A stretch of 33,009 nucleotides of DNA from positions 1 to 33,009 of IMG/VR virus record IMGVR_UViG_3300005290_000042, one strand, 5' to 3'. Both the position numbers and the translations under genes were made by a program. Source of the stretch: a virus. Below the pieces are notes generated by a model. The model searched no databases, was not told the DNA's origin, and was given only the letters and a program-made list of their open reading frames with translations. The stretch's first letter is position 1. Each line of letters opens with the position of its first letter. This document shows, piece by piece, positions 1,547 to 33,009 of the stretch.

Positions 1547-3418
1547 ATGAGCATCCGAAAACCACGCATCGAACAGAAGGCAGCGAATCAGATTAACCTC
1601 TATAACTTATGGTTTTCGACAACTATCCATCCTTTATGGCGCGAGTTGCTAATGATTCAGCATGGAGGCAGGTGGACAAAGAAGGACGGCACCATAGCGG
1701 GAAACGGGAATCTGTTTCATTACAAAGAGGCAATTAGATTGGCATGGCCGCACATAGACCAGCATCGGTGGTTCGATGTGTTCGCAGAAAACTGGCTAAT
1801 CTACAAATATGTAGCAGTCCTTGGTCCAAAATCGTCCGGAAAAACTTGCGATGCGGCTGTGTTCCATTTGATTGATTACTACGCCTTTCCCAATTGCACC
1901 ACAACGGTAGTTTGCTCGGACACAAAGGAGAATCTTGAGGATCGTATCTGGGGAGAGATTAAGAAGCTCCACCGAATAGCTAAGGCTGATTACGCATGGC
2001 TACCGGGCCAGCTAATCGAAGGGCGCACGCGCATAGTCACAGACAATCGAGATGAACATACAGAGGGGCGTGATTTCAGGAATGGAATGGTCGGGGTAAG
2101 TTGTAAGAAAGGTAATGCGGTGGTTGGCATTTCGGCTTTCGTTGGTCGCAAGAACAAGCGGGTTAGGTTTTGCGCAGATGAGCTTAGCCTGCTTCCCATG
2201 AGCTTTATTGACGCCACAGCATCACAAGCCAATCCCGAGGTAAAAGTGACAGGAATGGGCAACCCCGCGACAACAACCGATGCTTTAGGGGCACTCGCGG
2301 AACCTGACGTTACCCTTGGGGGTTGGGATAGCGGCATTGATCAATCTCCCAAGACCAAGACATGGAAAACCCGTTGGCCTAATGGTATCGCCATCCAGCT
2401 TCCCGGCTCTGATTGTCCAAACATGGACGTGCCAGAAGATGCGCCCGTGCCATTCCCCTATTTGATGACGCGCAAGCAAATGGAGGAGGATGCCAAGATA
2501 TGGGGCAAGGAGGATTGGCATTACACCATGTTCAACGAAGGGCGTATGCCACGGGGTCAAGGCTCGCGGCGAGTTCTCACACGCCAACTATGTCTTAAGA
2601 ATCACGCGATGGATGAAGCGATATGGGCGAGCGTCAACCGTACGCGCATTGCCTCCCTGGACGCAGCTTACCGTGCGGTAGGTGGTGATAGGTGCGTATT
2701 TGCTATCTTTGAATTTGGACCGGAAGGAAATATTGCCGCACTGCCTGAATCAGAATTTACCGTTAGCCAGCAAGTGAATAGCGAATCACGCCAAGTGCTG
2801 TTCTCGCTCAAGGAAATTTCCATAATCCCAATTGAAGGCAACGATTTTGAATCACCCGAGGATCAGATTGTCATGTATGTAAAGAAAGCGTGTGAAACAA
2901 ATTCCATTGCTCCGCGCAACTTCTTCTTTGATTCAGGAATGAGAACATCGCTCGTAACAGCTTTCTCTCGCCTATGGTCTGTGGACGTAAACCCGATTGA
3001 TTGCGGTGGGCGACCATCAGAACGTAAGGTTTCTGAAAACATCGACGTGCTCGCGTGTGACTATTACTCCAAGAAAATTACAGAGCTTTGGTACTCATGG
3101 AGGCTCATTGTTGAGGCAGGTCAATTTCGCGGGATGACCGAGGACGTGATGAAGGAGGGCTGTCAGCGCGAATGGATGACCGTTGGCGGAAACAAGATCG
3201 AAGTCGAGACGAAGGCAGACATGAAGCTTAAAACTGGTCGCTCGCCTGACTTAGCTGACTGCGTTGTAATTGGAATTGAGGGCGCACGGCAGCGAGGTTT
3301 CCACATTAAACGCATGGTCAACGAAGAATATGTTGAAACTGATACGCGCTGGAAAGATGAATTACGCCGTAAAGCCTTAGCTATCACCAAGAAATACCAA
3401 CTTAATTATGCTGCTTGA
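1547..3418 (+). CDS. terL: Terminase large subunit (TerL)
   Basis: The DNA-packaging motor ATPase and nuclease, 623 residues, acting at the portal vertex. Walker A is GPKSSGKT at residues 93-100. Walker B with catalytic acid is VRFCADE at about 206-212, followed by a GMGNP motif (236-240) in the position of the ATPase coupling motif. The C-terminal RNase H-like nuclease shows acidic residues in SLDAAY (D372), FFFDSG (D462) and SPDLADC (D568, D571), as expected of the TerL family. Length and domain order are complete. It is one of only two confident plus-strand genes, divergent from the hub gene, and its TGA overlaps the -35 box of the next gene's promoter. No separate small terminase subunit was recognised in the window. 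Confidence 0.95.
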   Translation: MSIRKPRIEQKAANQINLYNLWFSTTIHPLWRELLMIQHGGRWTKKDGTIAGNGNLFHYKEAIRLAWPHIDQHRWFDVFAENWLIYKYVAVLGPKSSGKTCDAAVFHLIDYYAFPNCTTTVVCSDTKENLEDRIWGEIKKLHRIAKADYAWLPGQLIEGRTRIVTDNRDEHTEGRDFRNGMVGVSCKKGNAVVGISAFVGRKNKRVRFCADELSLLPMSFIDATASQANPEVKVTGMGNPATTTDALGALAEPDVTLGGWDSGIDQSPKTKTWKTRWPNGIAIQLPGSDCPNMDVPEDAPVPFPYLMTRKQMEEDAKIWGKEDWHYTMFNEGRMPRGQGSRRVLTRQLCLKNHAMDEAIWASVNRTRIASLDAAYRAVGGDRCVFAIFEFGPEGNIAALPESEFTVSQQVNSESRQVLFSLKEISIIPIEGNDFESPEDQIVMYVKKACETNSIAPRNFFFDSGMRTSLVTAFSRLWSVDVNPIDCGGRPSERKVSENIDVLACDYYSKKITELWYSWRLIVEAGQFRGMTEDVMKEGCQREWMTVGGNKIEVETKADMKLKTGRSPDLADCVVIGIEGARQRGFHIKRMVNEEYVETDTRWKDELRRKALAITKKYQLNYAA

Positions 3419-6806: not shown

Positions 6807-7550
6807 CTACGATTGAATCGCCGCTAAGTCACTCAATAAATCATCCTTTGCAAATCCCTCTGGAGTTTTGCCTGATTGCAAGTATTCCTCGGTGAAGTAC
6901 GCCCACGCCTCATCGCAATAGGTTTCGTAAAACGTACGCGTCATCTGCTGCTCTCTCCCCCAAGTAACGCAGTAAAGGTTTTCCCTGAATCCTATGAGTG
7001 GAACATAGTGGCCCCCAGATATGGTTGCGCCGGGAACAACACTCCAAGTATCAAAATTCGAGAACTGATCCATCGCACTATTCGGAAATTGAAATCCGAT
7101 TCCCACTGTCCCAAATATGTACAACGCCGTAAGTAGATTCTTCCAGCTTCCTGGTTCTATTGACACAAACACGCCAATCTTATGCCGATTCCCCATAAAA
7201 TCCTCAACGCCAACGTCACGCCGATACTTCATTGCATCGCGCACGAGCGTTCCTTGATCTGATGAGAGATTTAACGGAGTGTATCCAGTAACGGCTGAGT
7301 AATCTGAAAGCACGCTTGTTTCAGTGAATACTCGCCCGATGCCCCCCATAGATGAAAGCAGCATCGTTTCGTGTGCTGCACCGCTGAATACACAGCAACC
7401 CACCTTGTCATTTGCGAGCATTCTCCAGTCTGAAATCACGCCCTCATGCCCAAATGCCTCGGGAATATCTGGAAGCTTATGCGTATCAACGTATCGAGAC
7501 ATGAGTAAGTCCCGATGATCGTAAGTTGGAGAACGCTTTCCGAGCTTCAT
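6807..7550 (-). CDS. Papain-like cysteine-peptidase-fold protein
   Basis: A 247-residue protein of a phage/bacterial papain-fold family I recognise by MLANDKVGCCVFSGAAH (residues 44-60), GGHYVPLIGF (179-188) and VTWG (195-198). In relatives the first motif is usually 'NDxVGDC', so C53 is the expected nucleophile and C52 replaces the Asp. H181 is the expected catalytic His. VTWG stands where papain has NSWG, so the usual Asn is not there; as I recall this is common in the family. The N-terminus KLGKRSPTYDHRDL is also typical. The substrate is unknown: cell-wall lysis or virion processing are both possible. There is no signal peptide. The ATG overlaps the upstream lipoprotein stop (ATGA). Confidence 0.75.
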   Translation of the reverse strand: MKLGKRSPTYDHRDLLMSRYVDTHKLPDIPEAFGHEGVISDWRMLANDKVGCCVFSGAAHETMLLSSMGGIGRVFTETSVLSDYSAVTGYTPLNLSSDQGTLVRDAMKYRRDVGVEDFMGNRHKIGVFVSIEPGSWKNLLTALYIFGTVGIGFQFPNSAMDQFSNFDTWSVVPGATISGGHYVPLIGFRENLYCVTWGREQQMTRTFYETYCDEAWAYFTEEYLQSGKTPEGFAKDDLLSDLAAIQS

Positions 7551-17729: not shown

Positions 17730-19235
17730 TTAAATGTCAGGGGTTGCCGGGACTGCACCACGATCAGGAGGATTTCCATCCTGCGATCCAGTCGGCACGC
17801 CTGTGCCATATTGTGCCGCAAATGCAGCGGGCACCGGGCATTCAGGATTAGTCGAGGCATACGCTTGCGCCGGGTATCCAGGATCAGCACTGCAAGCTGC
17901 GATTTCAGGGATGCATTGTTGTTCACTGACGTGGAAGATTGCTTCCATGAATTCCGTGTACAACGGGCGAATGTAATAAACAAAGTCGCCGATGAACTGA
18001 CCCTTGTTACGGCGCTTATTCTGAATCGCAACACCGCTCGAATCCGCGCCAAGGTTGTCCATGACGAACATCCATTTGCCCGCGAAGTTACGATGACCAA
18101 AAGGCATCTCAGGATTGATTGTGCCAGAATCAGGCACGAGCAATTCCATCGCTTTCTTGTGGAAGATGTACGACAGCCGATAATGCGCTTTATCGTAATC
18201 AGGGTTAGGAATCGAACCAATGCCAGCCGAACCGCCAGCGCCTGTGGTGATTTCGTTGCGATACGGCAGCACTACTTGGTAGCGATACCGATTGGCGCCT
18301 ACGCCCGCGCCCAAATCCGTCACGTAGTTGAAACGCAGCCCCATTGGGTCAACACGCGCCATGTAGTTACCAATCTGGCCGCTATAACCGTAGCGCCAAT
18401 ACTTGGTTGATTCGTCAAACTGGGTGAAGCGCCAGTTACCGAGCACATTGGGGTTATTAGCGGCACCGACACCTGTTTGACCACCGAGATGATCCAACTG
18501 CCATGCCGTATCCAAATCCGTTACCAATTCAATGAACGGCGAGGTTTCCTTGAAAGGATTTTTGCCCGCGTAACCTTCGAGCATCAAAGGATTGAACCGC
18601 GCCTGCAACATCTGCGGCGTCAACTTGAACACGCGGGACGGTGACGCGCTGGTATCAAAGTAAATTTCGTCATCACCATTCACACCACCGAGGGTCCACG
18701 TAAATGTGAACACGCCATCGGTGCCATTGACGCCAAAATTCCTGTTAGCCACGTCCTTTTGACGCGCCCACAATAGCGCACGTTTACGAAGGAAATTCGA
18801 GGAAATAGCCAAGGTAGCTGGCTTGAGAATGTCGCTGATAATCTGATCCAGGTGCCGCTCAGCTTCGGTGATGTGCATCAACTGGTCGTAGCACAATAGC
18901 GGCGTCTCCCAGTGCTGCTCCTCAGCGTAGTAGGTCAACCGATCCGCGCCCCAACCAATCTGGTGCTCTGTAGGATCACAGGGATTACCAATGCAGCCCG
19001 GACCATTGGAGATGCGCCGGGTCCATTGCTTAGTGGTATTCGGCCATACGGCACGAAAACGGTCCTGTGTGATTTCCACAGGCGTTCCCATTGGGGTTGT
19101 GCCTGTACTGACGTTATACAACCATCCGTCGGTCGGCCTGATATCGCTAAGAATTAGCTCATCGAATCTAGGCGTTTCGTCAACTAATAATTGGGTAAAG
19201 TCACATCCTTGGATGTTTGAATCTGGGCAGCTCAA
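17730..19235 (-). CDS. Putative major capsid protein
   Basis: 501 residues. The length, absence of signal or repeats, and position after portal and scaffold support the major-capsid call; no HK97 motif can be proven by eye. It opens SCPDSNIQGCDFTQLLVDETPR. The interior is helix/strand mixed: YDQLMHITEAERHLDQIIS near 117, WARQKDVANRNFGVNG near 155, NWRFTQFDESTKYWRYGYSG near 265, and PEMPFGHRNFAGKWMFVMDN near 375. The C-terminus is Pro/Gly-rich. The predicted start is TTG at 19233-19235, with AGAAAG upstream; a stop lies six codons further upstream. It may have its own promoter at about 19419-19446. A minor structural protein is the main alternative. Confidence 0.75.
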   Translation of the reverse strand: MSCPDSNIQGCDFTQLLVDETPRFDELILSDIRPTDGWLYNVSTGTTPMGTPVEITQDRFRAVWPNTTKQWTRRISNGPGCIGNPCDPTEHQIGWGADRLTYYAEEQHWETPLLCYDQLMHITEAERHLDQIISDILKPATLAISSNFLRKRALLWARQKDVANRNFGVNGTDGVFTFTWTLGGVNGDDEIYFDTSASPSRVFKLTPQMLQARFNPLMLEGYAGKNPFKETSPFIELVTDLDTAWQLDHLGGQTGVGAANNPNVLGNWRFTQFDESTKYWRYGYSGQIGNYMARVDPMGLRFNYVTDLGAGVGANRYRYQVVLPYRNEITTGAGGSAGIGSIPNPDYDKAHYRLSYIFHKKAMELLVPDSGTINPEMPFGHRNFAGKWMFVMDNLGADSSGVAIQNKRRNKGQFIGDFVYYIRPLYTEFMEAIFHVSEQQCIPEIAACSADPGYPAQAYASTNPECPVPAAFAAQYGTGVPTGSQDGNPPDRGAVPATPDI

Positions 19236-19446: not shown

Positions 19447-20043
19447 CTACGATTGTGCAATTATTTTATCTGCCTGCTTATGGCAAGGTACGCACAACCA
19501 CTCAACCACAAGCCAAAACTCCTTTTCATATCCCCTGTAGTGATGTGCTTCTATCGGACCTGAATTCGGACATTTGGAGCAGGTATTCGGCCTTATAAGT
19601 CTTCCATCAGCAACCGCTCTTTTTACTGCGGCGCGTGCAAGCAAAACGTGCCTATTTCCTTTATCGGAATGATATTTCCATGCACCGCCTTGTTTCTTCA
19701 TCCATGCGCGATTTATTTCATTTGAACATGGCCTGCAATATTGAGAGCCTTTTGCACGAGGGTCCTGTTTGCACTTGCAGCAGAGTTTGTTTTTAGGATC
19801 ACGCCTTCGTTTTGGAATTGGATCAACTCCCTTTAGCAATCTGTCGCAATCGTAGCAAAGCGCATTAGTTGCTGCATGGGGTTTGGATTTGCAATGCGAG
19901 CATAACGGATTTTCAAACAGGTATTTCACCAAATACTTCTTTTTGCACGTCCTACATCGCGTCTCTAATCCATCTTTGTAACGCGCTGATTTGTAAAATT
20001 CCGTCTCTGGCTGTGCGAATCCGCATATCGTACAAATCTTCAT
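19447..20043 (-). CDS. Free-standing HNH endonuclease with Cys clusters
   Basis: 198 residues from the ATG at 20041-20043. The N-terminal half has several paired-Cys motifs (CTICG; CRTCKK; CSHCKSKP; CYDC; CCKCK; CRPC), predicted to bind zinc and possibly DNA. The C-terminus is an HNH/His-Me nuclease core: TCSKCPNSGPIEAHHYRGYEK then VVEWLCVPCHKQAD. The HH is the catalytic pair, and CxxC...CxxC (C-P-N and CVPC) hold a structural zinc. The family commonly encodes homing nucleases. It is inserted between scaffold and capsid, with its own promoter-like site and a strong RNA hairpin in its leader. No intron remnants were found; both neighbours look intact. Confidence 0.85.
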   Translation of the reverse strand: MKICTICGFAQPETEFYKSARYKDGLETRCRTCKKKYLVKYLFENPLCSHCKSKPHAATNALCYDCDRLLKGVDPIPKRRRDPKNKLCCKCKQDPRAKGSQYCRPCSNEINRAWMKKQGGAWKYHSDKGNRHVLLARAAVKRAVADGRLIRPNTCSKCPNSGPIEAHHYRGYEKEFWLVVEWLCVPCHKQADKIIAQS

Positions 20044-20058
20044 AAGTAATAAAGAAAT

Positions 20059-20106
20059 CCCCACCCACCGTTAGGACCCGTAGGGAGACTACGGCAGTGA
20101 ATGGGG
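20059..20106 (-). ncRNA. Structured RNA leader of the HNH gene
   Basis: As minus-strand RNA, positions 20106 to 20059 fold into two stacked stems: CCCCAUUCAC with GUGGGUGGGG (10 bp, two G-U) and CCGUAG with CUACGG (6 bp) around the loop UCUCC. The 3' side has a 9-nt internal bulge GUCCUAACG. The plus strand has C-A mismatches where the RNA has G-U, so selection appears to act on the minus-strand RNA. It ends 16 nt before the HNH ATG. No named RNA family was recognised. Confidence 0.6.
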
Positions 20107-22417: not shown

Positions 22418-24784
22418 TTATTCCGAAGAACTTTTAGCAGGCTTAGCACGCGCCTTGGTAATGTCGATAACAGCTTTAGCGCGGTTCTCAGCAATCTTAA
22501 GCTTTGCGTTTTGAGCTTTGGTTCGCAGATCCAAGGCTTGCTTTTGCTGATCCTGCTTTGTCTTCTGCTCGAAGCTAATTTGACGCTGAGCCGTTTTTTC
22601 CGCGTGACTTTGTTTTGCATTTTCAGCCTTTACTTGAGCCTGCATCATCATCGCTTGAACCTTGGCCATCGCTTCAGGATCTTGCCCGTTTCCATTCTGC
22701 TGCGCGGCGGCTTGTTGAGCTTGTTGCTGTTGCTGCATCAAAGCCTTAATCATGTTCGATACTTGGCCCAAGGCATCGCCTAATTCTCGTGCCTTCTGTT
22801 TGCTCTCAGGATCTTGCTGCAACATACCAATGAATGAACCTGCGTATTGGGCAGCGAGCATCAGTCCCATCACGTCCATTGGCGTACCAATCGAGCCTTG
22901 CTGTTGAATCATCTGTAATTTCTGAGCCATGAGGCGAATCGTGGTTTCTGCAACCTCGCTGGCGTTTAGTCCGGGCTTGGGAGTAACTGGAATGCCCTGC
23001 ATCAGCGTACCAAAAGCCAATTCGCTATCGTGAACCGAATCGCTGACTTGCGGCTGATCGGGAACAAGCATTTTTGCACGTCCTGCGCTATCCGTAATCG
23101 CAAGGGTTGCATCACGCAGGATTTGCCTTTGCGCGGAAGGATCGTAGAGTTGATACATTTCAAGTAATTGCTGTGTCGCCTGCAATTCCTGAGTCTTTCC
23201 ACCACTTCCAAGTACTTGTTCGTGCTCTGCGTCCCACGCTTCGGGCACCAGAATTTTCTCAGGCACACCTTGGCGCAATACATCATTCCTGAAAGCCCTC
23301 ACATCTGGGTCTGAGGAATTAGGCTTTAGGAATCTTCGCAGCACCTCCATATCTTCGATGCCTTGATATTTGTACGCCTGTGAGAGCGCAGCACCAACTA
23401 GGGCGCTATCGGCGTTTACTTCCGCCATCACTTGAAATCGAGTTTTCTCTACACGATCAGGGGAAAAATCTCGGCGTTGAGCGAAGGTTCCGGTGCCAGA
23501 ATCAATCATCTCGCGCAATTGCATCTGAGTTGATTGGATAAGCTCACCGTTGGGCGTCCACCGTTCCTGCTGTGGGATTATTTGCAGCGTTTGGTCAATG
23601 AATCCACGGTTGTAAAGGTTCACCTTCAAGGCACGTTGAACATCGTCGAGGTTGTTCACCCTGAAAAGCTGCATCAGCGTCTCGAAAGTAGCCTCAACGC
23701 TCTTGCAGTTAAGCCGGTTTTGTATCGTGCAAACTCCATAGAGCAACCATCCCAACGAACGCACAGAATGATAACGAAAAGGCGCAACTGAGCTTAGATC
23801 CGCAAACTGAAAAGACATTATCTCCTGCCATGAACGAGCTACTTTACGATCACCAGAAGTAAACAAGAACTGATCCCATGCAGGTTTCTTTGTCTTGTCA
23901 TCAGGCGAGTGCAGATCCTTCATGTCCTCTCGCCGGTCAATGGAATAAGTATTTCCAGTAGGCGTTGGAGATGACCATGTGTCAATGATAATGCGCCTCA
24001 CCCATCCTTGCTCATCACCTTCATCATTCCAGACGTAGATATCGAAAGTATTGACTACTGGCGCACGGTCATTCGCCCATGTTCCACCATTGCTTTCCTT
24101 GATCATCTGCTCGGTGCGTTCAGGCGTGTAAACGTCTGGCCAGTAGTTTCCACGCAGCATCGTGCTCTGTTCCTCAATCCAATCTAGGCAGCGTTGCACG
24201 AAATCCATGTTCCATCCTGGATCACGCTTGTTAGCCTGCGTGATTTTCATTAACTCAATTCCAGTGAAAGAACGGCGAAGATAGAAGAAGGGAAGATTTT
24301 CAAATCCAAGAAGCGTTCCAGAAGGTATTAGCACATCACCTACCCCCAACGAGCGCGGACACCACTTATCCTCATTTTCCCACACATTGGGCGCGATACC
24401 ATGCAGGCAAAGTGAACCGATTCGACTGCGATAGGTTTCAAAATAAGGAACGCTTCGTTTGAGGTATTTGTTTAGCGATTCAGTTACCGTAGTGGAATAT
24501 CCTTTGCGCTTATCGCGTGAACCAGCGTCAGTGGTGCAACGAAAATAGTTGCCAGTTTTGAGGAACCCATTGGCGAACTGAGTTCGAGCACTGTGCAAAG
24601 CCTTGGTAAGCGACAAGTCGTTGTAATTAACAGCAGTTTGATTCTGTTCAACTTCTTCAGGGGTTAATGGCGGATTGCCGTCAGAAAGTCCATCTATCAA
24701 AGCCCTGTTTGCGGAGCGCGGTGAGTCTGCAAAAATCAAATCATATCCGATTGAGTCTAAAAGACGCGGGGATTCGGTATTCAC
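22418..24784 (-). CDS. Portal protein
   Basis: 788 residues, consistent with a large podovirus-type portal, the dodecameric DNA channel of the head. The body contains the expected mix of helices and strands with segments I associate with these portals: GSLCLHGIAPNVWENED near 125, ELMKITQANKRDPGWNM near 190, RYHSVRSLGWLLYGVCTIQN near 335. The C-terminus is a long Gln/Lys/Ala-rich helix (KALMQQQQQAQQAAAQQNGN; QRQISFEQKTKQDQQKQAL), typical of portal barrel tails. The start is GTG at 24782-24784, without a clear Shine-Dalgarno. It heads the head-gene cluster. I judge it a portal from architecture and context. Confidence 0.85.
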   Translation of the reverse strand: MNTESPRLLDSIGYDLIFADSPRSANRALIDGLSDGNPPLTPEEVEQNQTAVNYNDLSLTKALHSARTQFANGFLKTGNYFRCTTDAGSRDKRKGYSTTVTESLNKYLKRSVPYFETYRSRIGSLCLHGIAPNVWENEDKWCPRSLGVGDVLIPSGTLLGFENLPFFYLRRSFTGIELMKITQANKRDPGWNMDFVQRCLDWIEEQSTMLRGNYWPDVYTPERTEQMIKESNGGTWANDRAPVVNTFDIYVWNDEGDEQGWVRRIIIDTWSSPTPTGNTYSIDRREDMKDLHSPDDKTKKPAWDQFLFTSGDRKVARSWQEIMSFQFADLSSVAPFRYHSVRSLGWLLYGVCTIQNRLNCKSVEATFETLMQLFRVNNLDDVQRALKVNLYNRGFIDQTLQIIPQQERWTPNGELIQSTQMQLREMIDSGTGTFAQRRDFSPDRVEKTRFQVMAEVNADSALVGAALSQAYKYQGIEDMEVLRRFLKPNSSDPDVRAFRNDVLRQGVPEKILVPEAWDAEHEQVLGSGGKTQELQATQQLLEMYQLYDPSAQRQILRDATLAITDSAGRAKMLVPDQPQVSDSVHDSELAFGTLMQGIPVTPKPGLNASEVAETTIRLMAQKLQMIQQQGSIGTPMDVMGLMLAAQYAGSFIGMLQQDPESKQKARELGDALGQVSNMIKALMQQQQQAQQAAAQQNGNGQDPEAMAKVQAMMMQAQVKAENAKQSHAEKTAQRQISFEQKTKQDQQKQALDLRTKAQNAKLKIAENRAKAVIDITKARAKPAKSSSE

Positions 24785-24828
24785 GGTATAGATTGCTTAA
24801 GTGCCAATGCCTCCATTGTCAATAAGAA

Positions 24829-24864
24829 CCGTCCTGCCAGCGAGGGAAGGCACCAGCAGGACGG
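24829..24864 (-). terminator. Rho-independent-type hairpin before portal gene
   Basis: A perfect 9-bp inverted repeat, CCGTCCTGC and GCAGGACGG, with an 18-nt loop, is followed on the minus strand by TTCTTATT. It separates the glycan island (last stop 24927) from the portal start (24784), so it probably ends or attenuates the upstream transcript. TTGACA follows it at 24817-24822 but no convincing -10 was found. The stem resembles that at 17679-17712. Confidence 0.5.
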
Positions 24865-24926
24865 CAATGAACCCAAACAACCACACCTAATGTACAATTG
24901 CACCTTCTTACGCTGCATTCATGGTG

Positions 24927-25127
24927 TCAAACACTCTTTTTGCATCTCAAGCACAACATTGGTTTAAACACATCACCGTCTATCCTTCCCTCAACCCATC
25001 CATAGCATTTCGGGCACCAGTACCAGTTTCTATTCGTTCGATGACACCATACCTGCATTAGCCCAGCAACGGCAGTAACGTCCGTGCCTACTGGCTTATC
25101 ACGCAGCAATGGGATTTGATGGTTCAA
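24927..25127 (-). CDS. Zinc-ribbon-like small protein
   Basis: 66 residues with paired Cys motifs CPKC (38-41) and CLRC (59-62), plus a Cys at 28 (VWCHRTNRN). Together these look like a small zinc ribbon. It overlaps the GT9-like gene by 29 nt and is the last gene of the glycan operon before the hairpin. Function unknown. Confidence 0.6.
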   Translation of the reverse strand: MNHQIPLLRDKPVGTDVTAVAGLMQVWCHRTNRNWYWCPKCYGWVEGRIDGDVFKPMLCLRCKKSV

Positions 25128-25953
25128 GTTTCGCCAGCTTTCGATTCACAACATCAGCTAATTCCTGTGGGTCAATCTGTCCGCAAGGTGGATTGTAAGG
25201 GTCAATTGGGCACCGATGCCGTTGACAGTTCAAACAATCCAAATCCCTTCGCTTCACTACTTCAAAGTCACTTAATGGCGAGAGACGCAAATGCACGTCA
25301 TGGCTCTGGCTGATTACCACCATTGGAACGCCATAAGCAGAAGCAATGTGCATTGGCCCTGTATCAACGGTGACGACAAGATCGGCTATGGAAATGAGAT
25401 CGGCGACTCTACTAATATTTCCCACACCCATACGCACGTATTTTTGTGGCGGAGGATGCTCTCCGAGCCAAAAGCACCACGGATCTATGCAGTAAACGAA
25501 CTTTTCCCACAACGCATCAGGAACACATCTGGTTTGAAAAAGAGAACGCGGCACAATCATTACCCACGGACGACTATAAGAATGTCTGTATCTTTCCTCA
25601 ATTGCCGCCCGATCTGATTCTCTCATTACTAGCTTCGGGGGTTTCGGAGGGTTAGTCATTGAAATACTCACCCCGATGCGATTCAACTGTATCGCCGCTG
25701 CCATCATAAATATACCAAGAAAGTGCGCTACATGTGCATTCGCATAATTCTCGTAGCAGCCATCAAGATTAACGTCACAGTGACCCTTTGGAGGCTCAAC
25801 ACGCACTATCGTAGGATGCCGCCTAATTATCGGCATTACCTCTGGATGACATTGCCACACCACTTCGTGGCCCTGTTCGTGGAGCAGATCAGCGACAACG
25901 GTAGCGGCTAGACTGTCCCCGATACCCGCGGTCCTTCTCACAATTATCTTCAT
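25099..25953 (-). CDS. GT9/heptosyltransferase-like glycosyltransferase
   Basis: 284 residues, short for GT9 (usually about 320-350). The N-terminus KIIVRRTAGIGDSLAATVVA has the 'GDxL' start of family GT9. VTVDTGPMHIASAYGVPMVV (residues about 194-213) is the diagnostic GT9 nucleotide-sugar-binding motif. There is a C-terminal Cys-rich patch, DCLNCQRHRC, seen in some relatives. The family transfers heptose, GlcNAc or related sugars in LPS-like glycans. ATGA-type overlap with the 70-residue gene upstream. The acceptor is unknown. Confidence 0.82.
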   Translation of the reverse strand: MKIIVRRTAGIGDSLAATVVADLLHEQGHEVVWQCHPEVMPIIRRHPTIVRVEPPKGHCDVNLDGCYENYANAHVAHFLGIFMMAAAIQLNRIGVSISMTNPPKPPKLVMRESDRAAIEERYRHSYSRPWVMIVPRSLFQTRCVPDALWEKFVYCIDPWCFWLGEHPPPQKYVRMGVGNISRVADLISIADLVVTVDTGPMHIASAYGVPMVVISQSHDVHLRLSPLSDFEVVKRRDLDCLNCQRHRCPIDPYNPPCGQIDPQELADVVNRKLAKLEPSNPIAA

Positions 25954-26162
25954 TCGATGATCTTTGAATGGTTAAAATTCCACGGCACAAATACCTGCTT
26001 AAAAAATCCCTTCTTATCATTGCAAACCCAAAGTGTTCTCATTGATCCATCATCCATCTCTGCTGTACCGCTATCAAATTGAAGCCCGTCATGTTTTCCA
26101 CCGCGCTTTATGATGGTCATAAACCCATCATCCTTATTGACCCCAAACCTTAAAACCTTCAT
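25950..26162 (-). CDS. Small hypothetical protein in glycan operon
   Basis: 70 residues: KVLRFGVNKDDGFMTIIKRG, then RTLWVCNDKKGFFKQVFVPW. Probably a small beta-domain. It is flanked on both sides by ATGA overlaps with glycosyltransferase genes. No family recognised. Confidence 0.6.
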   Translation of the reverse strand: MKVLRFGVNKDDGFMTIIKRGGKHDGLQFDSGTAEMDDGSMRTLWVCNDKKGFFKQVFVPWNFNHSKIIE

Positions 26163-26752
26163 AACTTTCGATGCTCCGCGATTTCAGATTCGTTGGGCCT
26201 CTGATGCCACATGGTCACGCCCTCAAGGAACCAGGTTTTCCACCCATTATGTTTCAACAGCAAATGCCCATTCACGTCGAATGGTCGCGGAAACTCACTG
26301 GCGTACTGCTTCCAACAAAAGCGTGGGAATATCGGATATGCCTGAGCCTCGGCTCGTGGGTAAACTGATTCACGCAACTTGGAAATCGCTGGTTGAACGA
26401 TATAACCCGTAGTTGGCACCTTGCGTAGTTCGCCCATCCAATCTCCTTCCACTACCATGTCATCGCCGCCAATCCAGACCCATGTTGCATCTGACCTTTC
26501 CTCAAGCTCACGGAAGAAATGCTTATCCAATGAGCCATACCCTTCAAGCCGTGGTCCGATGAAGCATTTAGCCATTGGATACTCAAGCTCAATATCCTTA
26601 GCGGCAGCTACACTTTCCACATCATCATCATCGAAACGCATCACGATTTGGTAATCGTAATACGAACCTGTTTCAGTGATATTTTTGAGCGTGCGTAGCA
26701 ATGATGGCACGCGCTTACGGCTAGGAATCATTAAGGATACGAGATTAGTCAT
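26159..26752 (-). CDS. GT-A fold glycosyltransferase-like protein
   Basis: 197 residues. It starts LVSLMIPSRKRVPSLLRTLK, the N-terminus of a GT2-type GT-A domain. MRFDDDDVES at 38-47 gives an acidic metal/nucleotide motif, and WVWIGGDDMVVEGDW (about 91-105) a second acidic loop. The short length leaves little beyond the catalytic core. Coupled by 4-nt overlaps on both sides. Sugar and acceptor unknown. Confidence 0.7.
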   Translation of the reverse strand: MTNLVSLMIPSRKRVPSLLRTLKNITETGSYYDYQIVMRFDDDDVESVAAAKDIELEYPMAKCFIGPRLEGYGSLDKHFFRELEERSDATWVWIGGDDMVVEGDWMGELRKVPTTGYIVQPAISKLRESVYPRAEAQAYPIFPRFCWKQYASEFPRPFDVNGHLLLKHNGWKTWFLEGVTMWHQRPNESEIAEHRKL

Positions 26753-27693
26753 TCGAAGTGGGATTGGTATTGTTTAAAGGCTTCCAGTGAACGCGGCGGC
26801 AATCTGTCCAGCACCGCATTCTTATTCGTGGGCACTTCCTTGACGATAGCGAGGTTATTTTGCATCCCAATAACTTCATTGAGCAGGTCGGTTACAAGAT
26901 TATGTTCGTTGCGTTTCTGAACCACCGTAGGACCGCTATACATCACGCGGAAACCTTGCGCTTGCACATGGTAACTCGCCCAAATATCGTCCATTCTCCC
27001 AATGCCTGGGAACATGAAATAATGCGGCATCACCTCTTTGCTTAGGAAAGTGTTTTGTGAATTGAAAGGGGATGGCTTGTTGCTGGTGTAGGGAAACGGT
27101 GGGGTTTTAAATCTGCACTCTGATGTATCATAAGCCAGCCTGCAAATCGCATCCACGTCCGGCTCTCCATTCCATAAGTCCGCTTGCACATCGCACTTTC
27201 TCACCCGCCTACTCACTTTGATAAGTTGCTTATATCGGTCTTTGACAAGTTCTAATGGAAATCCACGATGCCAAAGCCTTGAATGGACCGTGATTTGCAA
27301 TGGATCAAATGCATCCTCGCTCAATCCGTACTCGTCAGATTGAACATCCTGACCAACAAAAACCTGTTTTCCCCAATTTTCACCGGGAATGTTATCGTCA
27401 TCAATTGTAGCCACAATGTCCGCCTTAAGTTCCTTGCACGCGAACAGGAAAGCGAAGTTGCGGCGTTGAATACAGTTCCAGCCGATGAGGTCAGAAAGCT
27501 TTGTATCCATTGCCTCCTGATCTGCGTCACTTAGATAGTGGAATCCAATCAATGGGCTTCCAATTCCATTCTCGTATGATTCAGGGGTATTTTTATCTCC
27601 CGCGATTACCAATTCCCAATCCCTCATCGCACAAAATGCAATCAAGGCGGGCGTAGGTTCGTGAATTGTCGTAGTGCAAATGACCTTTTTCAT
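26749..27693 (-). CDS. STELLO/GT75-like glycosyltransferase
   Basis: 314 residues. It begins KKVICTTTIHEPTPAL and has WELVIAGDKNTP (about 26-37). It then has CIQRRNFAFLFACKELKADI leading to TIDDDN (96-101), plus EPDVDAICRLAYD near 176 and PFNSQNTFLSKE near 213. This set of motifs is typical of the STELLO (DUF288) and related GT75-like proteins, which have a DDDN nucleotide-sugar site. The exact reaction is unknown for most bacterial members. It overlaps both neighbours by 4 nt. Confidence 0.7.
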   Translation of the reverse strand: MKKVICTTTIHEPTPALIAFCAMRDWELVIAGDKNTPESYENGIGSPLIGFHYLSDADQEAMDTKLSDLIGWNCIQRRNFAFLFACKELKADIVATIDDDNIPGENWGKQVFVGQDVQSDEYGLSEDAFDPLQITVHSRLWHRGFPLELVKDRYKQLIKVSRRVRKCDVQADLWNGEPDVDAICRLAYDTSECRFKTPPFPYTSNKPSPFNSQNTFLSKEVMPHYFMFPGIGRMDDIWASYHVQAQGFRVMYSGPTVVQKRNEHNLVTDLLNEVIGMQNNLAIVKEVPTNKNAVLDRLPPRSLEAFKQYQSHFE

Positions 27694-28418
27694 GGCGCGA
27701 TATGTAGATCCGTAAACCCTTCCAGTTGGCTCATTCTTGGCCAGTTGCCTTCAACAAAATTGTCGCAATGCTGATTAGGCACGCCGCCCTTCATTCCTTC
27801 AATCACGGGAGAGAATATGCGCCCATCGCTCAATGTAGCGGCCCACCACGAGAATGTGGAATTTGCACGGAATAACACTGGCGCGGTCATCAGGCGGTAG
27901 AACGACGGCAAACAAACTTCAGTGGTGCCAAGACCGGATGCCCATGAATCACCACGGAATGTTGGGATTTGAGTAGGATGCAAAGATGATTCCAGATCGT
28001 AATTAATTGTTCGCGCATTATCGCGCATTGCCTTTATGTATGACGCTAGTGAGATACATATCATATCAGCGCTTATGTAATCATCTCCAGCGCGAATATT
28101 AATTATTGTCGTGCTTGGCTCGCACTTCGAAGGCTGCAACCGTTCCAACACTTCAGGCTTAAACGCGAACCATTCCCTGACCTGTTTGCGCGTGTAAATC
28201 AGTGAGGATTGTCGTTGGTGCAAATCCTCGCCTAAATCTAAATCGGGCTTGTATTTGTCAGGGCGCACAGCTTCAGGTACGCCAGCAAATACGCGCTCTC
28301 CAATCCAAGGAGGCAAGGATACTTCGTAGCCATTCTGTTCGGCGTAGGCGCGAAGGTAAGCGTACTGAAAACAAAGATTTCCCAGGCGTCCCGTTAATGG
28401 CATGGTCACTGTGGGCAT
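27690..28418 (-). CDS. GT11-like (alpha-1,2-fucosyltransferase family) enzyme
   Basis: 242 residues. PLTGRLGNLCFQYAYLRAYA (7-26) matches the 'GGLGNQLFQYA' start of GT11. IINIRAGDDY (105-114) corresponds to the 'H.RRGDY' GDP-fucose motif; Asn and Ala replace the usual His and Arg. LFRANSTFSWWAATLSDGR (182-200) matches the conserved 'SNSTFSWWAA' motif. GT11 enzymes commonly add fucose in alpha-1,2 linkage to glycans. The chain is shorter than many members (about 280-300) and a key basic residue is altered, so activity is uncertain. Confidence 0.78.
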   Translation of the reverse strand: MPTVTMPLTGRLGNLCFQYAYLRAYAEQNGYEVSLPPWIGERVFAGVPEAVRPDKYKPDLDLGEDLHQRQSSLIYTRKQVREWFAFKPEVLERLQPSKCEPSTTIINIRAGDDYISADMICISLASYIKAMRDNARTINYDLESSLHPTQIPTFRGDSWASGLGTTEVCLPSFYRLMTAPVLFRANSTFSWWAATLSDGRIFSPVIEGMKGGVPNQHCDNFVEGNWPRMSQLEGFTDLHIAP

Positions 28419-28419
28419 C

Positions 28420-29022
28420 TTACCGCTTTCTAAAAATTATGTGGTTTGCGAAAGCCTTAACTATGTCGCATTGAGCGGATACCATACCAACTGCTTTCTG
28501 AGTTGATTCCCATGTCGTATCATCAAAAAAAATCAGCCCACCAGTTTTAACTCTCGGTAAATACAGCTCCACATCTCGGCAAGATACTACTTCGCTGTGA
28601 TTCCCATCTATCGAGATCGCCCCCAAGTCGCTCATCATCCAATAAACATCTTGCGATCTAGCCCGAACAGTTGTCACGATGTTTGCTAATCCTAATCGAA
28701 AAACATTCGCCGCAAATTCTTCATATATTTCATCCAAGTCCACCTTTGCCCACCACTCTCGGTTAGCCTCGTTTTCGCCTTCCATACACGGCTCGCAAAA
28801 CCAAGGATCGATGCCTACAATTTGACCTGCCCCAAGGTATTTAAGAGTAAGAGCTATTGGAATTAGTTGCCTTCCGTGAAAAACTCCGATTTCGCAGCAT
28901 CGCAGCGGCTTTTCTTCTAGCACCAGTTTCGCAATCTCCAGCACGCGATCTAATTCTGCCCACCCTTTAAGAGAGTCGAACTCCGTTTCGATCTGCTGGC
29001 GTAAATCGTCAGGCAGGCTCAT
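28420..29022 (-). CDS. Class I SAM-dependent methyltransferase
   Basis: 200 residues from the ATG at 29020-29022, coupled to the upstream GT stop (ATGA). PLRCCEIGVFHGRQ (39-52) is the Gly-rich SAM-binding motif I with acidic E44. IVGIDPWF (68-75) is the ribose-binding strand. AISIDGNHSEV and LPRVKTGGLIFFDDT are the typical later motifs of the Methyltransf_24-like group. Several members act on sugars, and the surrounding genes make an O-methyl sugar modification plausible. A longer TTG-like frame to 29058 is less likely. Confidence 0.8.
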   Translation of the reverse strand: MSLPDDLRQQIETEFDSLKGWAELDRVLEIAKLVLEEKPLRCCEIGVFHGRQLIPIALTLKYLGAGQIVGIDPWFCEPCMEGENEANREWWAKVDLDEIYEEFAANVFRLGLANIVTTVRARSQDVYWMMSDLGAISIDGNHSEVVSCRDVELYLPRVKTGGLIFFDDTTWESTQKAVGMVSAQCDIVKAFANHIIFRKR

Positions 29023-29918
29023 GGCGTGAATTCTGCAATTGGCTGATGATCCCACCAATCAACAATCGGCATCCGAGATGGAGGAAATGGTTTTCCAGAA
29101 AGCGTATCGGCGCGTAGTTGTCGTATGCCACCTTCAAAACAGTTATCGAACTTTTTCATCCCACGCACCATTCCAATCAGAGCATGACTTTTATCGGCGG
29201 GTGATTGGCCCTTGTCGCGTCGAATCATTACTTTTCCAACGCTATGAAATTCCTCGCTTTCATACGTCATCATGCGCCTATCGTACTTCAAGTGAGCACC
29301 ATTATTGGCAAGGACCACGCCAAGGCAACAATCCTCAAAGGCGATCCCCCCAGTAATTTCCGGCCAGCCCTCTACATCAAGGAAAGTGTTCACTGGACCA
29401 CCACATGAACAACCAAAAAGCCAACCACCCTCGCATGGAACAGGTCCAGAATCGTTACCGTAGCCATATCTGTGATCCAATCCGCCTGGATCGAAATACC
29501 TAACTTCACCATTTTCTACTTTGAGATTCTTAACCTTGTGATAAGCACCACACACGATGTAATCGCTTTTCATCATGTCGCGCACGCCATTCATCCAAGT
29601 AGGTAGCAACACACTCAGATCATCCACGAAAACAACATGCCCGTCTGAAGCATGACAGAGGCCAGTATTCCTCGCACTGGCCGCATTAAACCAATCTTCT
29701 TTCGTAAGCCGATTCGGTCCCTGATAGTGATTCGGTTTCGGAGCTACCCACACTGTTTCAAATGGTAAACCATCGAGAGGTAGTGGACGTTCATTGCGAT
29801 AGAAGTCCACAATGATGAGCTTCACATACACGTCACCCACTTGCCGCTTCAGGCTATCGAGAAACCATTCGATTTTGGGGTCTTCGCGTGTGGTTGAATA
29901 CACTATACTCAAGCTCAT
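29019..29918 (-). CDS. GT2-like glycosyltransferase
   Basis: 299 residues. MSLSIVYSTTREDPKIEWFL, with LIIVDF (35-40), is a GT-A start. WFNAASARNTGLCHASDGHV at 76-95 followed by VFVDD (96-100) is the GT2 'N.A.N.G' and DxD-type motif. GGIAFEDCCLGVVLANNG near 190 is the downstream acidic ED motif. Full-length GT2 domain. Four-nt overlaps on both sides put it firmly in the operon. Confidence 0.8.
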   Translation of the reverse strand: MSLSIVYSTTREDPKIEWFLDSLKRQVGDVYVKLIIVDFYRNERPLPLDGLPFETVWVAPKPNHYQGPNRLTKEDWFNAASARNTGLCHASDGHVVFVDDLSVLLPTWMNGVRDMMKSDYIVCGAYHKVKNLKVENGEVRYFDPGGLDHRYGYGNDSGPVPCEGGWLFGCSCGGPVNTFLDVEGWPEITGGIAFEDCCLGVVLANNGAHLKYDRRMMTYESEEFHSVGKVMIRRDKGQSPADKSHALIGMVRGMKKFDNCFEGGIRQLRADTLSGKPFPPSRMPIVDWWDHQPIAEFTP

Positions 29919-30946
29919 AGGGGCGTCATAAGTTTTTCAAGATCTGAATGGTTAGGACAGAAATAAGCAGAACAAAGATCGTTCACGCCTAGTGTCACGA
30001 GCCATTCACCATGCCTGAGTGTGGCACCCTGACAGAAAACTACAAGAGGTTTCCCTGGTGCCCAAGTATCTTGTCGAGAGCCGCACAGTAATGGATCTTT
30101 TGTGTATCTTGTAATCCTAAATGGAGGCTTGTCCTCAAAGGCATAGCAGCCAGTAAAGTATCTTCGTCCACCACCGTGCGTCCAATCAACGGAACTGTGG
30201 TAAAAAGTAAAATACTCATCCCCCACAAGTACCGGCGGCGTTCCACCACGTATCTGCCCCCACTGCCATCTCAACTGAGGCTTGGTTTCCCATCTCTGAA
30301 CCACCCGGAAATTCCAATCAAATTCCGCTACATTATGTGGATCTGCGGAGTAGATGAGATGCGGCTTGTCATTTATCGGTTTCCACAACCAATTCTTTTC
30401 CTGCCTCTTGTTATTGTAACAATGCTGCCCATTTCCGCCATACACTGGATCGTAGCGTTTCACCAAATTCCAATCATCATCGAACTCACAGATGATTTGA
30501 TGCGCTCCTGAACCTCGCGGTGCCCAAATGAAATTCGTGCAACTGATGTAAGTCTTTCCATTGTGATAAAATCCTCGTGGATCTTCAAAATGCTCGTCGC
30601 TGTAAAAGGCGCGGATGAGCAAAGGCTTGGCATCTGTCGGCACGGTGCCATTTACCAGCTTGAACACCACAATGTCATTCAAACCAAATGGACAATGCTT
30701 ATACGCACGCGAACGGCGCACCAAGAGCCAATCCCCATCGGGCCGTGCCACAAATCCACAGTTAAAGTAGTCGCATCCAACTTGTGGAGGCAGTGCGGAT
30801 TTGGAGAAATCGTAGTAGGCGACTAACCAAGGTGTCTGAGCACAAATTGACGGTGGGTCATTTGGATCGAATCGCGGGCGCTGAACCGAATTAGTAGAAA
30901 TCAGAAAACAACGCGGACTCACTACGGATGAAAGTGTAGCGGTCAC
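29915..30946 (-). CDS. GH130-like beta-propeller glycosidase/phosphorylase-family protein
   Basis: 343 residues. FEDPRGFYHNGKTYISCTNF (120-139), QEKNWLWKPI (182-191) followed by LIYSADPHNV, and RGGTPPVLVGDEYFTFYHSS (233-252) match the order of motifs in the GH130/GH32/43-type five-bladed propellers. 'EKNW.P' and 'H.v' contribute to the phosphate/sugar site in GH130 (mannosyl-glycan phosphorylases). The last part (YFTGCYAFEDKPPFRITRYT) is also typical. In context it may trim or build the glycan made by the neighbouring enzymes. The GTG at 30944-30946 is the likely start. Substrate unknown. Confidence 0.7.
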   Translation of the reverse strand: MTATLSSVVSPRCFLISTNSVQRPRFDPNDPPSICAQTPWLVAYYDFSKSALPPQVGCDYFNCGFVARPDGDWLLVRRSRAYKHCPFGLNDIVVFKLVNGTVPTDAKPLLIRAFYSDEHFEDPRGFYHNGKTYISCTNFIWAPRGSGAHQIICEFDDDWNLVKRYDPVYGGNGQHCYNNKRQEKNWLWKPINDKPHLIYSADPHNVAEFDWNFRVVQRWETKPQLRWQWGQIRGGTPPVLVGDEYFTFYHSSVDWTHGGGRRYFTGCYAFEDKPPFRITRYTKDPLLCGSRQDTWAPGKPLVVFCQGATLRHGEWLVTLGVNDLCSAYFCPNHSDLEKLMTPL

Positions 30947-31553: not shown

Positions 31554-32246
31554 TCATAATTCGCGTTTTATCCAACACCACTCAGGCAATTGCTCTCGCA
31601 CCTCGTCAGACATCTTGGAACGGATTCGCGTAATAGGTAGGAAAATCTTTAATTTCAACGGACACGAACAGATCGAACAAATGGAAAGACCGTCCGAGTT
31701 TGGTACATCTAAGTTCCACCCCCTTAACTGCTCCAATCCTTTTCTTATCGCCTCGCTTGCGCTTGTGGTGAATATGTCGAGCAAGGACTTTGTTTTTTGA
31801 TTATATGGACATGCGAGGCATACTTCAGCGCGTTGGGTTGCTATTTTAATCGGAACTGCTTCTTCTTTGCTTTTAACAAAGTCAATGATCACAGGGCTAC
31901 CGCTGGCCACAACACTTTTTAGCCTTCCCAGGAACCGCTGATTCTGTGGACGCTGCGGTTGGTTGAAAGGGACAGCAACGGGCTGACCTCCATCAGCCAA
32001 GAAGTTTTTCCAGCCCATTTGCTGGCAATGCAACGCAATCGCCTCATCCACTTCATCTCTTATTGTAATCTCATCGGTACTCCAGCCATGTTGCTGCGTA
32101 AGCGCGGGATTAGCGAGGCGTGCTTGTTTCAGCCCCGCTGCGATTTCCTCCACGCTCGCCCACGGTCTAGCACGATACTTGAGGATGGGATCGTAGAACT
32201 TGTGCCCACCTGGAGTTTGTTTATTTCGGTCTTTTAGGCGCGGCAT
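31554..32246 (-). CDS. Phage Cys-motif protein (CxxCP...CxxCxCPL)
   Basis: 230 residues. The first part is soluble and helical (EEIAAGLKQARLANPALTQQ). The C-terminal half has CLACPYNQ (143-150), CSICSCPLKLKIFLP (190-204) and PEWCW (221-225), giving a Cys pattern that could bind zinc or a cluster. I have seen this 'CxxCP...CxxCxCPLKxK...W' pattern in phage proteins of unknown role. It ends before the small-protein genes and starts 3 nt after the DUF6745-like stop. Confidence 0.7.
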   Translation of the reverse strand: MPRLKDRNKQTPGGHKFYDPILKYRARPWASVEEIAAGLKQARLANPALTQQHGWSTDEITIRDEVDEAIALHCQQMGWKNFLADGGQPVAVPFNQPQRPQNQRFLGRLKSVVASGSPVIIDFVKSKEEAVPIKIATQRAEVCLACPYNQKTKSLLDIFTTSASEAIRKGLEQLRGWNLDVPNSDGLSICSICSCPLKLKIFLPITRIRSKMSDEVREQLPEWCWIKREL

Positions 32247-32249
32247 AAA

Positions 32250-33009
<760 letters not shown>

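Follow-up and report, generated by a model that had tools for sequence, protein, structure and literature searches.

A candidate exchangeable glycan-synthesis cassette beside the presumed portal gene of an uncultivated phage lineage

Seven glycan enzymes are encoded in one tightly packed run

The window analyzed here is the whole stretch of 33,009 nucleotides of IMG/VR virus record IMGVR_UViG_3300005290_000042, a 33-kb linear record. Its minus strand carries a run of eight genes (25099-30946), seven of which encode glycan enzymes; we refer to this run as the cassette. It is flanked by a conserved gene of 230 amino acids, the anchor (31554-32246), and by a gene of 788 amino acids that presumably encodes the portal (22418-24784). 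For this locus, we computed gene order, gene families, a structure match, the fixed position of the site, the replacement of its content in relatives, and a module common to remote phages. Pfam was used as the family test, and E values below its cut-off are given as such. From the upstream end, the run consists of the following genes.

29915-30946, minus strand: GH130/GT108-type five-bladed propeller enzyme, 343 amino acids, GTG start
29019-29918, minus strand: GT2-like glycosyltransferase (GT2a), 299 amino acids (Pfam PF00535, E 0.019, below cut-off)
28420-29022, minus strand: S-adenosylmethionine (SAM) methyltransferase, 200 amino acids (PF13578; Pfam Methyltransf_24, E 5.5e-15)
27690-28418, minus strand: GT11-like glycosyltransferase, 242 amino acids (PHROG 2644, 1.7e-9)
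26749-27693, minus strand: GT75-related protein, 314 amino acids (phmmer match to MtdL structures)
26159-26752, minus strand: GT-A (GT2-type) glycosyltransferase (GT2b), 197 amino acids (PF13641, E 7.9e-9)
25950-26162, minus strand: small open reading frame (ORF) inside the overlapping run, 70 amino acids (4-nucleotide overlaps on both sides)
25099-25953, minus strand: GT9 glycosyltransferase, 284 amino acids (PF01075, E 5.6e-12)

Read in this order, the joints are -4, -4, +1, -4, -4, -4, and -4, six of the seven being overlaps of 4 nucleotides. A preliminary description of the window had named seven carbohydrate genes in one run with mostly 4-nucleotide joints, and we located all seven on the minus strand as described. 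It had passed over the 70-amino-acid ORF, which matches no family among Pfam and PHROG, and had drawn the 3' limit of the island at 24927, which is really the end of a separate 66-amino-acid ORF that is no glycan gene. The coupled glycan operon beside the portal that it proposed is supported, the portal itself being presumed from its position.

Overlaps of 4 nucleotides also join other gene pairs in the window (21956-22186/22183-22374, 6807-7550/7547-8122, and 9519-10157/10154-12238). They therefore show operon packing and nothing special, and we rejected them as particular evidence for the island. The first gene of the second pair (6807-7550) encodes a 247-amino-acid protein that matches PHROG 19005 (8.5e-31), a family whose function is unknown. 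The guanine-plus-cytosine content of the island equals that of the rest of the window, so a recent foreign origin by composition was also rejected. Poor codon scores of some window genes proved to be an effect of training pooled with other genomes, and a search for RNA families found no match.

The site is fixed and its content is replaced in near relatives

We found 33 IMG/VR contigs that are relatives of the window phage. The borders of the locus and the neighboring features are as follows.

31554-32246, minus strand: conserved Cys-rich anchor protein, 230 amino acids, upstream border (homologs in 24 of the 33 relatives)
24927-25127, minus strand: ORF of 66 amino acids with paired cysteines, TTG start, no glycan enzyme (Pfam IBR, 0.0071, below cut-off)
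24828-24865, minus strand: hairpin with a 15-bp stem between the cassette and the presumed portal (pattern match only)
22418-24784, minus strand: presumed portal protein, 788 amino acids, downstream border (by position)
17730-19235, minus strand: presumed major capsid protein, 501 amino acids, yardstick for the lineage (50-78% identical in near relatives)

In 21 of the 33 relatives we located the two borders and read what lies between them, and the comparisons cover these and the window (22 genomes); the figures are approximate, coming from a home-made gene caller and from blast coverage of stop-to-stop ORFs no shorter than 70 amino acids. The anchor-portal site is fixed in all 22 genomes, with an interval that ranges from 1.3 to 10.7 kb and differs in content. 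Of the portal-capsid block, five relatives with 73-78% capsid identity share an average of 62-75% with the window; of the window cassette they share 0%. The propeller was not found in any of the 33 relatives. Only the GT9 gene of the window cassette is clearly common to some near relatives, with homologs in 7 of the 21 intervals, several of them fused to a GT2 domain. The comparison thus bears out the cassette-like variation among related phages that had been raised in the preliminary description.

Pfam families matched by representative genes from the relatives' intervals include GT9, GT9+GT2, GT2, RmlD, epimerase, pyruvyl transferase, PLOD-like GT, radical SAM, and transaldolase, along with C-, O-, and FkbM methyltransferases and TylF. 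Counted by gene cluster, glycan-type genes are present in 18 of the 21 intervals. A pathway beside the portal had initially been considered unusual; these counts, and the larger island of cyanophage S-T4, speak otherwise.

The high turnover of interval content would also suit auxiliary genes of host origin that are loosely assembled, have no function in common, and persist by chance at a recombination hot spot. Three intervals that hold only unassigned families (those of relatives G002, G013, and G025) and the HNH-endonuclease-like ORFs near some cassettes point the same way. We nevertheless consider this explanation improbable: the intervals are largely coding with frequent 4-nucleotide joints, most contain glycan-type genes, and, as described below, the propeller, methyltransferase, and GT2 genes travel jointly across very remote phages with their order conserved.

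The gap between cassette and portal is 142 nucleotides in the window; many relatives have about 10-30 nucleotides between their last cassette gene and the portal. The hairpin in this gap is a possible terminator or processing site; hairpin-type sites in the region are rarer than in shuffled sequence. Between the scaffold-like and capsid-like genes lies a Cys/His-rich HNH-endonuclease-like ORF (19447-20064), which has a counterpart at the same place in contig L002 (16458-17048). Such ORFs, also found near some cassettes, might promote cassette exchange. At the contig end (32889-33009) a 12-bp unit, CGACCAGACCTG, is repeated ten times in tandem and reads as QVWS repeats in one frame; the contig may break off at 33009 owing to this repeat.

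The propeller resembles GH130/GT108 mannoside enzymes

A viral scan with the propeller sequence alone gave no match. Through a weak homolog in a bacterial genome, we obtained a two-row alignment, which found 20 viral contigs. As a single sequence, the propeller reaches E 0.047 with Pfam GH130, below the cut-off, and 13.1 of the 26 bits of the gathering score of PF04041 (GH130 proper). It was therefore filed in the GH130/GT108 superfamily and not as a GH130 member. A 19-row profile (A8) matches beta-1,2-mannoside phosphorylases of GH130 with structures in the PDB, Lin0857 (E 6.8e-15) and Teth514_1788 (1.2e-11).

When modeled using AlphaFold 2, the propeller had a predicted local distance difference test (pLDDT) score of 37 as a single sequence and 88.8 with 18 viral homologs added (19 sequences). 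The best Foldseek match of the model is the beta-1,2-oligomannan phosphorylase 9fj8 (E 3.1e-11, TM 0.61/0.70), and the search also finds GT108 enzymes of Leishmania, which depend on GDP-mannose (MPT-2, 6q4z; E 1e-7). The model has the five-bladed beta-propeller fold of solved GH130/GT108 enzymes. BFVD, searched with the same model, contains predicted GH130/GT108-like propellers in several giant-virus proteins, including those of pithovirus and mimivirus; LicD, pyruvyl transferase, or fucosyltransferase is the annotated name of some of these proteins.

The mannose-site residues of Teth514_1788 are Asn28, Asp92, and Asp281 (PMC4264767). They align with N62, D122, and D323 of the propeller, and the adjacent Glu91 aligns with E121; all four are conserved in the A8 rows that reach them. 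The window propeller is like the GH130/GT108 mannoside enzymes in its fold, its ED(P/A)R motif, and the three mannose-site residues, but it is only 13-19% identical to the solved members. GH130 and GT108 enzymes share a fold and, for some members, also substrates and mechanism (PMC8950772), so the propeller may act as a synthase, a phosphorylase, or a transferase. Judging from sequence and model, the propeller is probably a beta-mannoside synthase, phosphorylase, or transferase.

The propeller belongs to a module that recurs in remote phages

Most of the 20 remote viral contigs that encode the propeller also contain remote homologs of the terminase, anchor, portal, or capsid. Their gene order is terminase, anchor, portal, module, and then scaffold- and capsid-like genes; in 15 of them the portal was located by homology, upstream of the module and close by. 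A methyltransferase accompanies the propeller in 18 of the 20 contigs. GT2a homologs (36-49% identity) adjoin it in 7, and GT2b homologs are found in the modules of 3 (L233, L235, and L244). In L244 the order is as in the window, propeller-GT2a-methyltransferase-GT2b; the window adds the GT11-like and GT75-related genes between methyltransferase and GT2b. The terminase large subunit of the window (1547-3418; PHROG 2, E 2.8e-5) is encoded on the plus strand, opposite to most genes, and lies distant from the portal; in the remote phages it is directly upstream of anchor and portal.

The propeller and GT2a are up to 49% identical to their remote homologs, and the portal and terminase 21-33%. Transfer of the module between remote phages appears to be the simplest reading of these sequence identities. 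Alternatively, the module may be under stronger constraint than the head genes, but this leaves the absence of the propeller from near relatives unexplained. Replacement in near relatives together with recurrence in remote phages indicates an exchangeable phage glycan module.

The remaining enzymes include a GT75-related subfamily

The GT75-related protein matches no Pfam family at E 0.1, the STELLO model included, but phmmer aligns it with the MtdL structures 7yua/7xpr (E 6.5e-19). MtdL is a GDP-sugar mutase with solved structures, in which R159 is the glycosylatable Arg (PMC9937993), His287 binds Mn, and Asp87 is essential. Twelve MtdL active-site residues that we checked are kept (DDD98-100, N101, R143, D179, S212, Q213, R233, D236, R261, and H264). 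As expected of GT75, the DDD motif (D98-D100) and R143, the equivalent of MtdL R159, are invariant in 164 sequences. In contrast to the GT75 mutase, the equivalent of His287 is Q259, a Gln in all 164 sequences, and that of Asp87 is I75, which is I, V, or Y in all of them. Because both residues are replaced, we call the protein GT75-related only, a related family. Gln for the Mn-binding His and Ile/Val/Tyr for the essential Asp is a clean subfamily signature. The protein is possibly a nucleoside diphosphate (NDP)-sugar mutase or a GT-A transferase. Its relatives are common among bacterial and viral sequences, including Synechococcus phages S-T4 and Sf-CH8, and in 29 of 80 viral loci a GT11-like homolog lies at most 6 kb from the GT75-related gene.

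The GT9 protein is a clear family member (PF01075, 46 bits against a cut-off of 22), but it reaches only 38.7 of the 134.6 bits of the best NCBIfam equivalog model for lipopolysaccharide (LPS) heptosyltransferases. An LPS-type glycan, which the preliminary description had derived from GT9, therefore does not follow. The GT11 fucosyltransferase family is matched below its cut-off (PF01531, 15.4 of 23.9 bits over 16 residues, E 0.012). Of the family calls made earlier, the methyltransferase, GT9, and GT2 (PF13641) are solid and the GH130-like and GT75-related calls hold up, whereas STELLO proper has no Pfam match and GT11 falls short of its cut-off. The SAM methyltransferase probably O-methylates sugars. 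The window cassette proteins contain no clear transmembrane stretch (highest 19-residue hydropathy 1.52).

The glycan is most likely destined for virion proteins

The lineage has no relatives in the phage-record collection searched: its capsid, portal, and terminase proteins have no match among 50,697 records. To assign a host, we ran the capsid profile against GTDB contigs and against 289 genomes belonging to the same phylum as a Verrucomicrobia metagenome-assembled genome, and neither set gave a match. The literature searched, which included few subscription papers, holds no description of the lineage, weak evidence of novelty. The presumed portal has no PHROG, Pfam, or PDB match, and the presumed capsid no library match. 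The portal gene follows the anchor, precedes scaffold-like and capsid-like genes, and is 39-57% identical in near relatives.

On balance, we favor the view that the locus is an exchangeable glycan-synthesis cassette at a fixed head-cluster site of a probably virulent phage lineage, with the glycan most likely on virion proteins. We infer the sugars, the late co-transcription, the virion target, the lifestyle, and the selective reason, and picture the pathway as follows. The cassette would share its transcription with the late structural genes, and its translation would be coupled. From nucleotide sugars, the soluble enzymes of the cassette would build a short glycan that is O-methylated and probably contains mannose. 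The propeller of GH130/GT108 type would transfer or edit a beta-mannosyl unit, and the GT9 enzyme, the GT11-like enzyme, and both GT2-like enzymes would attach further sugars. A modified GDP-sugar may be either provided or consumed by the GT75-related protein, and the methyltransferase would cap the glycan. Attachment to virion proteins would most likely occur in the cytoplasm, before or during assembly. A cassette swap would then alter the surface chemistry of the particle and leave the head proteins unchanged.

The main competitor, which we regard as unlikely but worth serious attention, is that the cassette remodels host LPS or capsule during infection, so that receptors are hidden and neither superinfecting phages nor progeny meeting debris can adsorb. 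Relatives of GT9 and GT11 are typically associated with surface glycans. In a bacterium, the propeller homolog shares its gene cluster with a DegT aminotransferase and an ABC-2 permease, a setting of cell-surface polysaccharide export, and GT75-related genes are widespread in bacterial genomes. However, no tyrosine integrase (PF00589) was found in 24 records, positive controls included (serine integrases were not searched), and no prophage in the bacterial collections searched. Since no window cassette protein is a clear membrane enzyme, the cassette itself supplies neither a flippase nor a lipid-carrier step, and its location among head genes is kept in remote phages. Neither the integrase or prophage nor the membrane flippase or transferase of gtr-type lysogenic O-antigen conversion was found in these searches.

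It is very improbable that the enzymes glycosylate phage DNA for protection from restriction. Phage glycosyltransferases are known to hypermodify DNA (work cited in passages of PMC12619734), but no thymidylate synthase or hydroxymethylase-type gene was found in 23 records, positive controls included, the RmlD, epimerase, and pyruvyl transferase genes of relatives exceed known base glucosylation, and the cassette lies beside the portal. The lack of a tyrosine integrase, a thymidylate synthase, and a clear membrane enzyme, together with the position among head genes, favors virion decoration over LPS conversion and DNA glycosylation. Of the two targets proposed in the preliminary description, decoration of the virion is therefore preferred, and an LPS change in a lysogen seems disfavored.

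Several points weigh against virion decoration. Besides the bacterial context of the propeller homolog and of GT75-related genes, lytic phages could alter the host surface during infection, and the 15-bp hairpin stands between the window cassette and the portal. Portal and capsid identities are presumed from position, and both the glycan and its virion target are predictions. A P/G/A-rich capsid tail, a possible glycan site, is missing in the relatives with the largest cassettes, so the capsid C-tail was rejected as a universal glycan site.

More tentatively, and with somewhat less than even confidence, we propose that the whole uncultivated lineage swaps complete glycan pathways at a dedicated head-cluster locus, giving similar capsids different sugar coats. 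If true, this would be the bacteriophage counterpart to autonomous glycosylation in giant viruses, the particle would switch in a serotype-like manner, and the swapped pathways would include beta-mannosyl propeller enzymes common to very remote phages. Few systems with glycosylated bacteriophage virions have been documented. A locus with a constant position, a varying content, and a module in common with remote phages offers a genomic handle on the frequency of such glycosylation, on the sugars involved, and on the forces behind their exchange. It would also widen the range of GH130/GT108-type propellers from mannan metabolism, where they are known, to the glycan modules of tailed phages and provide concrete enzymes to assay.

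Comparison with known glycosylation systems

Synechococcus phages S-T4 (Kyanoviridae) and Sf-CH8 likewise carry a glycan island, in which about 14 glycan-type genes are packed closely together; they encode, among others, several glycosyltransferases, a methyltransferase, and a GT75-related protein that is 43% identical. Unlike the window phage, they have genomes of about 175-181 kb and heptose-precursor genes in the island; there is no portal in the annotated stretch and no propeller match in the phage records.

In mycobacteriophages, glycans are present on capsid and tail-tube C-termini (passages of PMC12619734, citing Freeman 2023). Che8 and Rita resemble the window phage in that phage-encoded glycosyltransferases are linked to capsid and tail-tube glycans (passages of PMC11256854 and PMC12619734, citing Freeman et al. 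2023), but those passages describe no comparable exchangeable pathway beside the portal.

Giant viruses, such as Mimivirus with its nine-gene cluster and the chloroviruses, also possess sugar-building, glycosyltransferase, and methyltransferase genes that serve the particle (PMC4691112), and GH130/GT108-like propeller folds are predicted in pithovirus and mimivirus proteins. They differ in being eukaryotic viruses with unrelated capsids and far larger genomes.

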